From the NCBI GenBank assembly GCA_963377175.1, contig CAUJNA010000446.1, positions 2,195,351 through 2,259,350 on the forward strand: 64,000 nucleotides of DNA. The letters are read 5' to 3'. The position numbers and the translations under genes were made by a program. A model generated the notes under the pieces. The model was not told where the DNA came from. It was given only the letters and a program-made list of their open reading frames with translations, and ran no database searches. Below are positions 16,276 to 46,116 of this stretch, piece by piece (the stretch's first letter is position 1; each line of letters begins with the position of its first letter). This DNA comes from Effrenium voratum. Lineage: Eukaryota > Sar > Dinophyceae > Suessiales > Symbiodiniaceae.

Positions 16276-16292
16276 TGCTAAATTGCACGAGC
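16276..16292 (+). repeat. Left terminal inverted repeat
   Basis: TGCTAAATTGCACGAGC. It matches the inverted right terminus at 16 of 17 positions, with one T/C mismatch at base 4. Confidence 0.88.
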
Positions 16293-16411
16293 CCCCTGCG
16301 GGAAGGGATGAATAAGTGTTTTCAATACGTTGGGCAGAAAGAAGTAACACCTGCAACCCAGACTAAAAAATTGTAGTAAAACACTTATCCATCCCTTCTC
16401 GCAGGGGCTCG
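16288..16411. promoter_or_regulatory. Left subterminal hairpin with two AAAACACTTAT motifs
   Basis: Arm 16,288-16,322 pairs with arm 16,378-16,411 over about 34 bp, with one indel and two mismatches. The loop is about 55 nt. The stem starts inside the TIR. Each arm carries the 11-mer AAAACACTTAT (as ATAAGTGTTTT at 16,312-16,322 and forward at 16,378-16,388). A structured subterminal region is typical of transposase binding sites; that role is inferred. Confidence 0.7.
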
Positions 16412-16471
16412 ACTCAGATACTGCCCTGCAGCCCGCGCTCTTTTTTCCGCTTCTCGCATCAAAACTGCACA

Positions 16472-16675
16472 CTACCGTTTCGATTTGAACATCTGGCTGA
16501 TGTTGCCAGACGGGGGCTCTTTTCTCTTCCGGCCAGCCTTCGCCTTGGGCTCCGGCTTGGGCTCCGGCTTGGGCTCCGGCTTGGGCTCCGGCTTGGGCCG
16601 CGCCTTTGCCTTTGCCTTGGCCTCTGGGACTGCAGCCTCACGGGCCTGGCGGGCCTTCTTTTTCGCCACCGCCTC
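16472..16675 (-). CDS. Gene C last exon: basic KPEP-rich C-terminus
   Basis: After acceptor CAGCAAG|AGGCG the frame reads AVAKKKARQAREAAVPEAK, a run of KPEP repeats encoded by a 12-bp tandem repeat (about 16,547-16,595), then a basic end GRKRKEPPSGNISQMFKSKR and TAG. The basic stretches could act as a nuclear targeting signal. SGNISQMF is at best a degenerate PIP-box-like word, which is speculation. The stop lies only about 60 bp from the left hairpin of the element. Confidence 0.65.
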   Translation of the reverse strand, partial: EAVAKKKARQAREAAVPEAKAKAKARPKPEPKPEPKPEPKPEPKAKAGRKRKEPPSGNISQMFKSKR

Positions 16676-19600
16676 TTGCTGGGGCTGGCTCGCCTTCCAA
16701 TGGAGGAGGCATTTGGCTCAAATGGTCTGAGGTTGAATTTGATGAAGGCAGGGGGTGGTGGATAAAGCAAGTGAACCAAATAGACAACAGCGCCGTTCCG
16801 TCCAACTGCGCCTTGTCGCTGTTCAACTTCGCGTCCGCCTCAGCGCCCGCAGCGCCAGCAGGAGCCTCTGCATCAATCTTCTCGGTCTCCAGCATGCCCT
16901 GCGCAGCTATCGAAAAACACAACGTTGTTTGGGGAGGCCGTTGGAATTATGAAGCGTAGGGTAGGGGGTGGTGGCAAAATGAGTGAAGAAACACAACAAC
17001 ATCTATCCGTCCAACTGTGCCTCGTTGCTCTTCAACTTCGCGTCCGGCTCAGCGCCCGTAGCGCCAGCAGGAACCTCTGCGTCAATCTTCTCGGTCTCCA
17101 GCACGCCCTGTGCAGCTGTAGAAAATCACAGCGTTCTTTGCCGAGGCCGTTGGAATTATGAAGGGTAGGGTCGGGGGTGGTGGCAAAATGAGTGAAGAAA
17201 CACAACAACATCTATCCGTCCAACTGTGCCTTGTTGCTCTTCAACTTCGCGTCCGGCTCAGCGCCCGTAGCTCCAGCAGGAACCTCTGCATCAATCTTCT
17301 CGGTCTCCAGCATGGTCTCCAGCACGTCCTGCGCAGCTATAGAAAATGACAACATTCTTTGGGGAGGCCGTTGTCAGGGTGGGTGGTGGAAAAATTAGTG
17401 AAAACCAAGAATACAGCAGCTATCTGTCCAACTGCGCCTCGTTGCACTTCAACTTCGCGTCCGGCTCAGCGCCCGCACCAGCAGGAACCTCTGCATCAAT
17501 CTTCTCGGTCTCCAGCATGGTCTCCAGCACGTCCTGCGCAGCTATAGAAAATGACAACATTCTTTGGGGAGGCCGTTGTCAGGGTGGGTGGTGGAAAAAT
17601 TAGTGAAAACCAAGAATACAGCAGCTATCTGTCCAACTGCGCCTTGTTGCACTTCAACTTCGCGTCCGGCTCAGCGCCCGCGCCAGCAGGAACCTCTGCA
17701 TCAATCTTCTCGGTCTCCAGCACGCCCTGCGCAGCTATCCAAAAACACAACGTTGTATGGGGAGGCCGTTGCTACGATGAAGGTACTGGATAAGAATGAG
17801 TGAACTAAATACGTATCAACATCTATCCGTCCAACTGCGCTGTGCCTTATTGCTCTTCAAATTCTCGCTCGGCTGCGCGCCCGCGGCGCCAGCAGGAACC
17901 GCTTCCGGGATGGTCTCCAGCAAGTCCTGCGCAGCTACAGAAAATGACAACATTCTTTGGGGAGGCCGTTGTCATTATGAAGGGTGGATAAAAAGATGAA
18001 CATGTGAATAACAAAATCTATCCGTCCAACTGCACCTTGTTGCTCTTCAACTTCGCGTCCGGCTCAGCAGCAGGAACCTCTCCATCGATTCGTTTGGTCT
18101 CCAGCTTCGCGTCGATTTCAGCGCCAGCGCCCGTGTCACCAGCAGGAACCTCTCCATCAATCTTCTCGGTCCCCAGCACACCCTGCGCAGCTGTAGAAAT
18201 CACTACGTTCAGGATTCAGGCCGTTGTCATTATGAAGGCTGCGGGTGGTGGAAAAATGAGTGAACAAACACAACAACATCAACATCTATCCGTCCAACTG
18301 TCTCTTCAACTTCGCGTCCGGCTCAGCACCCGTAGCGCCAGCAGGAACCTCTGCATCAATCTTCTCGGTCTCCAGCACGCCCTGCGCAGCTGAAGAAAAT
18401 CACTGCGTTCAGGATTCAGGCCGTTGTCATTGTGAAGGGTGCGGGTGGTGGCAAAATGAGTGAAGAAACACAACAACATCTATCCGTCCAACTGTGCCTC
18501 GTTGCTCTTCAACTTCGCGTCCGGCTCAGCGCCCGTAGCGCCAGCAGGAACCTCTGCATCAATCTTCTCGGTCTTCAGCACGCCCTGCGCAGCTGTAGAA
18601 AATCATAACGTTCTTTGGGGAGGCCGTTGTTATTATGAAGGGTAAGGGTGGTGAATAAAATAAGTGTTGGGTGAACAAAATAAATTAAAAACATCTACCC
18701 GTCCAAAATCGCCTCGTTGCTCTTCAACTTTGCGTCCGGCTCAGCGCCCGAGGCGCCAGCGGAAACCTCTGCATCGATCTTGTCGGTCGGAAGCTTGGCG
18801 TGTGCCTCAGCGTCCGCGGCGTGAGCATGAAACTCTTTGTCAATCTTCTCGGTCTCCAGCTTCGCGTCCGTCTTTGAGCCCGCTGCATCCGCGGCACCAG
18901 GGCCCTCATGGGCTTCCAGTTCCACATCCTGCAACGTTTCCTCAACTTGCCTATGTTTTCAACTTTTGAAGTATGATACTACTTGAGGGTTAAAGGTGAG
19001 GGTTTAAAGATTGGTGGAGCAGTTGGTGGAGCTTTATAAGGGACATCAAGATCACTGCCTACGGCCTACGGCGACTCCGCCAGACCTAAAGCAGGCACGA
19101 AGTACTGTACGGCACTTTAGGCTATTGGGTTGAAGGCTTAGATATTTGTGGACCAAGAGCACTGCCCAAGGCCTACGGCGACTCCGCCAGACCAAAAGCA
19201 GGCATGAAGTATGATACTACTTGAGGGTTAGAGTTGAGGGTTTAAATATTGGTGGAGCAGTTGGTGGAGCTTTATAAGGGACATCAAGATCACTGCCTAC
19301 GGCCTACGGCGACTCCGCCAGACCTAAAGCAGGCACGAAGTACTGTACGGCACTTTAGGCTATTGGCTATTGGGTTGAAGGCTTAGATTTTTGTGGACCA
19401 AGAGCACTGCCCAAGGCCTACGGCGACTCCGCCAGACCAAAAGCAGGCATGAAGTATGATACTACTTGAGGGTTAGAGTTGAGGGTGACGCTTTGGCCAG
19501 CACTCATATGAAGCCCCAGCCCTGGCGCCGGGCTAGCGCTGCCGGTGGGATTTACATGATTTAGGTGGGGGCCCGCTTCATTTCGAAAAGGAAAAGCCAA

Positions 19601-45687: not shown

Positions 45688-45925
45688 GGTGTGTTGGTGG
45701 TGTTGCTGGTGTTGGTGGTGTTGGTGGTGTTGGTGGTGTTGGTGGTGATGGTGGTGTTGGTGGTGTTGGTGGTGTTGGTGGTGTTGGTGGTGATGGTGGT
45801 GTTGGTGGTGTTGCTGGTGTTGCTGGTGTTGGTGGTGTTGGTGGTGTTGGTGGTGATGGTGGTGTTGGTGGTGTTGGTGGTGTTGGTGGTGTTGGTGGTG
45901 TTGGTGCTGCTGGTGCTGCTGCTGG
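45688..45925. repeat. GTTGGTGGT 9-bp minisatellite
   Basis: More than 20 copies of the 9-mer with single-base variants (GATGGTGGT, GTTGCTGGT), no deletions breaking the period. It lies 190 bp from the right TIR. It is open in all forward frames; the G/V ORFs are artefacts. Between 45,221 and 45,687 no exon is supported. Confidence 0.9.
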
Positions 45926-46032
45926 CATCATGTGTCATGTGGCATCTTATTTCTGTTGCAGTTTGCCTCGGAGGAATCAGTGAGTCTCATGGTCGCAGTT
46001 GCATGGTCCTTGATCCGGAAAAGGCGCTTCAG

Positions 46033-46072
46033 GAAGTGTTCAAACCAGTCCGCGAGTCGCGTGAAACACTTC
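46033..46072. promoter_or_regulatory. Right subterminal hairpin with AAGTGTT/AACACTT arms
   Basis: GAAGTGTTC (46,033-46,041) pairs with GAAACACTTC (46,063-46,072) with one bulge. CGCGAGTCGCG in the loop is a second small palindrome. The arm core AACACTT is shared with the left hairpin, although the rest of the subterminal sequence is not. Confidence 0.5.
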
Positions 46073-46099
46073 TTGATTTGGAATAGGCTCCCCCCCTGA

Positions 46100-46116
46100 G
46101 CTCGTGCAATTTGGCA
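46100..46116 (-). repeat. Right terminal inverted repeat
   Basis: On the minus strand this reads TGCCAAATTGCACGAGC, the partner of the left terminus. Pairing stops just inside it. Confidence 0.88.

Follow-up and report, generated by a model that had tools for sequence, protein, structure and literature searches.

We describe here a 64,000-nucleotide stretch of the genome of the dinoflagellate Effrenium voratum (GenBank assembly GCA_963377175.1, contig CAUJNA010000446.1, positions 2,195,351 to 2,259,350 of the forward strand), referred to as the window. In the window, a tandem satellite array is interrupted by a block with terminal inverted repeats (TIRs), a spliced transposase-like gene, an open reading frame (ORF) resembling C5-methyltransferases, further probable genes, and a palindromic array with a core between its arms (Table 1). 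We examined this block together with its copies, and with the relatives of its genes, in the host assembly (1,155,904,702 bases in 3699 contigs). The copy in the window is designated C446 after its contig, and other contigs are named in the same manner.

Table 1. Features of the block and its satellite flanks, in window coordinates
Feature	Position	Strand	Basis or detail
Whole element	16276..46116	.	29,841 bp, C446 copy
Left target-site duplication GTTTCTGT	16268..16275	+	pattern search, copy comparison
Right target-site duplication GTTTCTGT	46117..46124	+	pattern search, copy comparison
Left TIR TGCTAAATTGCACGAGC	16276..16292	+	exact 17-mer
Right TIR TGCCAAATTGCACGAGC	46100..46116	-	exact 17-mer
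Left subterminal near-perfect inverted repeat	16287..16411	.	z-score -8.46, 0/200 shuffles as good
Arms of the left subterminal repeat	16311; 16379	-; +	AAACACTTATT at 16311, AAACACTTATC at 16379
Right subterminal inverted AACACTT pair	46034..46074	.	includes AAACACTTCTT at 46064
Palindromic array	29938..31910	.	one arm of TCTCGTCGATTCGACAACATT-like units, opposite arm of their reverse complement
Core between the arms	30875..30995	+	AAACACTTATT at 30906, 30937 and 30969 (31-32 bp spacing)
Spliced transposase-like gene	39809..45644	-	protein matches, coding bias, copies
Transposase core exon	41407-42969	-	within the spliced gene; STDSSPQGG and TSDYGTE
Transposase exon ending in VERATE	40838-40954	-	within the spliced gene
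C5-methyltransferase-like ORF, 534 aa	34369..35970	-	M.HhaI motif IV aligned with AGSVCKDWS (Cys), motif VI with HEC (Glu)
Second gene, probably spliced	37481..38910	-	coding bias
Long multi-exon gene(s), probable	16487..28794	-	exon-like stretches, coding bias alone
Exact empty site	59043..59050	+	60/60 bases each side, one octamer
Uninterrupted satellite site, single octamer	3995..4002	+	further copy, near-identical
Single octamer, second half-unit of satellite dimer	10576..10583	+	pattern search
Single octamer, second half-unit of satellite dimer	52936..52943	+	pattern search

The TIRs are 17 bp long. When up to three mismatches were allowed, the 17-mer matched two sites in the window, which are the two TIRs, each exact. 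At the same threshold, two or more matches occurred in 6 of 100 shuffled sequences (mean 0.45); thus, the proof of the TIRs lies in the genome-wide copies and not in the count within the window. At the empty site at 59043, the 60 bases to the left of 16268 and the 60 bases to the right of 46117 recur without a difference around a single octamer. A sequence-only reading of the window had proposed that the satellite is cut and resumed around a 29.8-kb TIR transposon with exact inverted ends, and that the same satellite position is uninterrupted, with a single octamer, at two other places. The junctions (16275/16276 and 46116/46117) were exact to the base, the site at 3995 was a near-identical copy and that at 59043 an exact one, and the transposon with its exact ends was borne out by the TIRs, the duplication, the empty site and the copies elsewhere in the genome.

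The exact end pattern TGCYAAATTGCACGAGC was found 37 times in the host assembly (18 forward and 19 reverse), and the same pattern read backwards, used as a control, was not found. These ends make up 16 pairs that face each other, and five have no exact partner (in C702, C1588, C1691, C2922, and C3390, those in C1588 and C2922 being situated at the ends of their contigs). A perfect 8-bp target duplication (8/8 bases) surrounds every one of the 16 pairs, and the TIR has the exact TGCY form on both termini. Such a search for end pairs with 8-bp direct repeats had been suggested in the sequence-only reading, which was prepared to give up its proposal if no second copy existed; that outcome did not occur. 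Fifteen of the duplications are distinct. The copies in C3213 and C3293 have one flank in common and are, for that reason, probably one insertion duplicated along with its surroundings. Six copies are long (29,361, 29,841, 30,119, 30,626, 45,020, and 47,269 bp, the second being C446) and ten are shorter (one of 6,944 bp and nine of 1,941-1,958 bp). Alignments among the long copies span 22.8-29.2 kb and show 98.9-99.6% identity. TIRs with duplications of fixed length in several copies, together with an empty target site, are hallmarks of a cut-and-paste TIR DNA transposon, and the family has multiplied and moved recently.

Several copies differ in their content. The two longest (C554 and C1483) hold extra blocks. 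In C554, a 15.8-kb insertion inside the central array (element position 14874-30654) has the ends CCTGGGTGGCCATTTGG and, inverted, CCTGGGTGACCGTTTGG, and is perhaps another large TIR element. In C1483, which includes a 5,000-base run of N, an insertion of about 18.1 kb (element position ~5232-23317) lies between 350-bp direct repeats that are 99.7% identical, and is probably a long terminal repeat retrotransposon. The 6.9-kb copy in C2358 contains a 5.0-kb nested block (element position 86-5087) with inverted ends CCGAGAGAATCC and TA on its flanks, as read by eye. C446 lacks, or differs in, about 0.3-0.5 kb of sequence around 21169-21293 (element 4894-5018) that other long copies share. Relative to the long element, some sequence close to the right end appears by eye to be inverted in short copies, for example in that of contig C2.

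The satellite units on the two sides of the element are spaced by 12,273 bp (3995 to 16268) and 12,926 bp (46117 to 59043). Their long copies are mostly 90-96% identical in alignment, and less so in simple-repeat stretches. The unit is itself an old dimer, with halves that are about 65-79% alike, which is why the octamer also occurs singly at 10576 and 52936; the sequence-only reading had not noted this dimeric structure. The array (3749-16275 and 46117-64000, in units of about 12.3-12.9 kb) is apparently non-coding, and the coding-bias threshold was exceeded there only by simple repeats near 58.1-58.4 kb. A segment of about 665 bp (60665-61329) occurs in the last satellite copy only, judged from the gap between aligned blocks.

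The closest protein matches of the transposase-like gene are named Effrenium voratum, the best with 98% identity, and the dinoflagellate origin assumed in the sequence-only reading was thus correct. The motifs of the gene product suggest a layout of two Asp residues, a large helical insert and a Glu, the conserved Glu lying in an ER motif, and the five best matches of the helical part of its predicted structural model (VIA-align) were all to Hermes, a hAT transposase. The 8-bp target duplications are also those of hAT elements. Pfam did not recognise the gene, none of 11 transposase relatives scanned matched a hAT model in that database, and a profile search gave no sequence match in the PDB. 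The hAT target-site preference is nTnnnnAn; 2 of the 15 distinct duplications have this pattern, which does not amount to such a preference. The core exon is a single open frame in two of the six long copies and is split between frames in the other four. Distant relatives occur as single open frames of 1,240-1,752 amino acids (on C476, C2138, C2306, C2316, and C2376, and on C3238, C1001, C1720, and C765), whereas the gene of the 29.8-kb element is spliced. The predicted structure of one distant relative had a mean pLDDT (the per-residue confidence score of the model) of 42.5 and was not used.

A profile built from relatives of the methyltransferase-like ORF matched M.HhaI with an E-value of about 1e-4. 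In the alignment, LYSGLGG corresponds to motif I (weakly, at 6.1 bits), AGSVCKDWS to motif IV, HEC to motif VI and FPVKRGRSY to motif VIII; motif I, the Cys of motif IV, the Glu of motif VI and the Arg of motif VIII, which mark C5-methyltransferases, are all present in the profile alignment. The motif IV proline is replaced. PF00145 did not reach its gathering score in any of 10 relatives, the best value, in one of them, being 19.3 bits against 22. The putative methyltransferase is strongly divergent, and its ORF is open in all six long copies.

Outside the family of the 29.8-kb element, the host assembly has at least 41 transposase loci and at least 42 methyltransferase loci. Nineteen loci of each kind form pairs in which the methyltransferase follows the transposase on the same strand, at a distance of 5.7-45.6 kb downstream; random placement would give 0.04 pairs. 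For this count, neighbouring exon matches were merged by hand, and three same-contig combinations more than 500 kb apart were excluded, as were the family's own copies. The locus lists are lower bounds, with 67 of 236 transposase candidates and 84 of 158 methyltransferase candidates scored. Judged from shared scores and distances, the 19 pairs represent about seven families. At the sensitivity used, 22 of the 41 transposase loci and 23 of the 42 methyltransferase loci were unpaired, including those of one family, designated D. As the linked loci lie outside the element's own family and in about seven others, the pairing of these predicted genes is older than that family. That such linkage to transposase relatives recurs indicates that the methyltransferase-like gene is a regular partner rather than a one-off passenger. 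The sequence-only reading had spoken of several spliced cargo genes. That description needs qualifying, since the methyltransferase-like gene, linked to transposase relatives in other families as well, is not host cargo acquired on a single occasion.

The arms of the palindromic array measure about 0.9 kb each; their units, of close to 21 bp, run in opposite directions. Exact AAACACTTATT occurs four times in the window, once at the left end of the element and three times in the core; four further copies have one mismatch, including one at each element end. The 10-mers common to the core and the ends have 12 overlapping occurrences in the core, at three sites, and among 172 control windows any such 10-mer was found in 11 and never more than three in one. 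These motifs are candidate binding sites of the transposase. Folding was no better than in shuffled sequences for the right end (z 0.52) or for the core (z -0.37). The length of the array varies among copies. Of the long element, the short copies retain the left 250 bp (87-90% identity), the right-end sequence and, from the array, about 1.1 kb (76-79%). Measured as a fraction of copy length, the core position is 0.486-0.496 in each of the four long copies that have no large insertion. In eight of the nine short copies it is 0.516-0.519; C3301, the remaining one, does not contain the exact 14-mer searched for. In the three copies with insertions, the core lies at 0.323, 0.687, and 0.857.

As for the remaining coding potential, the eight stretches with the best coding bias are all on the minus strand and recur, about 99% identical, in the long copies; the scan was trained on exons of the same element, and the scores of those exons are therefore circular. 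A 228-amino-acid piece of the second gene gave seven tblastn matches, all in the six long copies of its own family. We considered whether this gene is conserved in other families and rejected the idea, the match to an ORF of family D covering 38 residues with a non-significant E-value of 2.6. The exon-like stretches of 16487..28794 had no Pfam match above the cut-off. Neither a tRNA nor an Rfam family at the gathering score was found. A relic of the spliced leader, a sign of retroposition, was sought with a 21-base consensus at up to three mismatches and gave no match. A Pfam scan of 20 ORFs and exons selected from the element matched no polymerase, capsid, ATPase, protease or reverse transcriptase. 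The TIR ends speak against a retrotransposon bearing a DNMT gene.

We consider it quite probable that the block represents a giant TIR DNA transposon of Effrenium voratum that was active recently and moves by the mechanism set out below. The near-identical tandem array in the flanks is a classic misassembly risk, and two unrelated sequences might have been joined there by the assembler; however, the same ends with perfect duplications were found 15 more times in the assembly, and five further long copies have the same interior. Because other contigs share both ends and interior, a one-off misassembly is very unlikely, and we treat its probability as negligible. An integrated large DNA virus or a Polinton-like virus with TIRs would also have such a size, such ends and a methyltransferase gene of its own. 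Polinton/Maverick duplications are 6 bp long, whereas those observed here are 8 bp in all 16 cases; furthermore, no polymerase, capsid, ATPase or protease was matched in the part of the element scanned, the transposase gene, at least, is spliced, and short forms without genes bear the same ends. Even allowing for the methyltransferase-encoding DNA transposons remarked upon in marine viruses (in excerpts of PMC5890265), a viral origin is very improbable. A classical hAT element, simply large and diverged, is a more serious alternative, as it would explain the 8-bp duplications, the short TIRs, the Hermes-like helical part of the model and the Glu of the ER motif; but it sits poorly with the missing hAT domain, the missing PDB match, target duplications without the hAT pattern, and a TIR start, TGCYAAATT, that departs from the hAT terminal consensus. 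We regard true membership of the hAT superfamily as rather unlikely.

Two further alternatives concern parts of the element. The methyltransferase-like gene might be an inert passenger or decoy with no function for the element, as the replaced proline, the Pfam scores below gathering level and the unlinked transposase loci (22 of 41) would allow; yet it has stayed open in six of six copies, though the similarly long transposase core exon is split in four of them, it has retained the catalytic Cys and Glu, and it is linked to the transposase in about seven families. We find a passenger improbable. The central array, in turn, could be an unrelated satellite that expanded by chance inside the element. 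Tandem arrays are frequent in the window (101 rows in the list of repeats), the array differs in length between copies, and the core is off-centre in the three insertion-bearing copies. Chance expansion would leave unexplained, however, why the array is partly kept in short copies from which most other interior is gone, why the core holds three copies of a motif equal to that of the end at 31-32 bp spacing, with more shared 10-mers than any of the 172 control windows, and why it lies near mid-length in both long and short copies. This origin of the array seems doubtful to us. Two points qualify the reading that we prefer: CpG depletion, as a trace of self-methylation, was not seen, so that CpG content lends no support to the marking role of the methyltransferase, and the mid-position of the core could be a coincidence, since there are just two independent layouts.

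In the mechanism that we propose for the transposon, the spliced hAT-like DD(E) transposase would bind the AAACACTTATT sites near the ends, excise the element and insert it at target cuts with an 8-bp stagger. The gene-less short forms, which keep both ends and part of the array, would be mobilised in trans. With less confidence, we suggest that the central core with its three motifs may serve as a third transposase-binding station that helps to unite the ends 30 kb apart; it might instead be a promoter or a regulatory centre, and a promoter is a fair alternative. Least certain is the role of the methyltransferase-like protein, which might mark the element or donor DNA and thereby evade or tune host silencing, or regulate transposition. 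A bolder proposal, which we put forward as tentative and think less likely to be right than wrong, is that the element represents a superfamily of eukaryotic DNA transposons that is as yet undescribed and resembles hAT in its fold alone. Its giant members would commonly pair a transposase with a C5-type methyltransferase of their own, and a palindromic centre with transposase sites would pair ends 30 kb apart, in a nucleus whose chromatin is very unusual.

With this family, dinoflagellates gain a recently active giant DNA transposon. Its nearly identical long and short copies form a candidate autonomous/non-autonomous pair, and, through the central motif, the way in which a cut-and-paste element of 30 kb unites its ends becomes open to a concrete test.

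Compared with known systems, the element shares with hAT transposons (Hermes, Ac, Tam3) the 8-bp duplications, the short TIRs and, judged by motif, a probable order of catalytic residues around a large helical insert, the helical part having Hermes as its best solved structural match; it differs in that no hAT domain was found by sequence and no nTnnnnAn preference was seen, and in being a 30-kb multi-gene element with a linked C5-methyltransferase-like gene. In phage Mu, a strong gyrase site at the centre of the 37-kb transposing element helps to pair the distant ends. The special site near the middle of the present element resembles it by analogy only. No dinoflagellate DNA transposon of such a kind was described in the titles and abstract openings of the open-access papers returned by our literature searches, in part the best matches of longer lists. 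The giant eukaryotic transposons reviewed in PMC6431247 are likewise very large mobile elements with extra genes; in the main text of that review, 'dinoflagellate' does not occur and 'methyltransferase' occurs once, in an unrelated phrase. The introner elements of dinoflagellates, also sought in Effrenium, are mobile and have inverted repeats, but excerpts of the reports describe them as non-autonomous and located within introns (PMC7789003, PMC10522408). The methyltransferase-bearing mobile elements of these algae that we found in print are retrotransposons: SymbioLINE-Dnmt and SymbioDIRS-Dnmt3 of Symbiodiniaceae, as described in excerpts of de Mendoza et al. (2018, PMC5890265), similarly join mobility with a C5-methyltransferase but encode reverse transcriptase and have mostly intronless methyltransferase genes, whereas the transposase gene of the present TIR DNA element is spliced and its putative methyltransferase highly divergent. 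In fungi, DNA transposons of eleven lineages, including hAT, carry a gene for a DNA-modification enzyme, the TET/JBP dioxygenase, according to excerpts of PMC12730594; this enzyme belongs to the demethylation pathway and is not a methyltransferase. The recurrent transposase-methyltransferase pairing in Effrenium voratum complements both the methyltransferase retrotransposons of the same algae and the TET DNA transposons of fungi, and makes testable the question of why mobile elements carry DNA-modifying enzymes.

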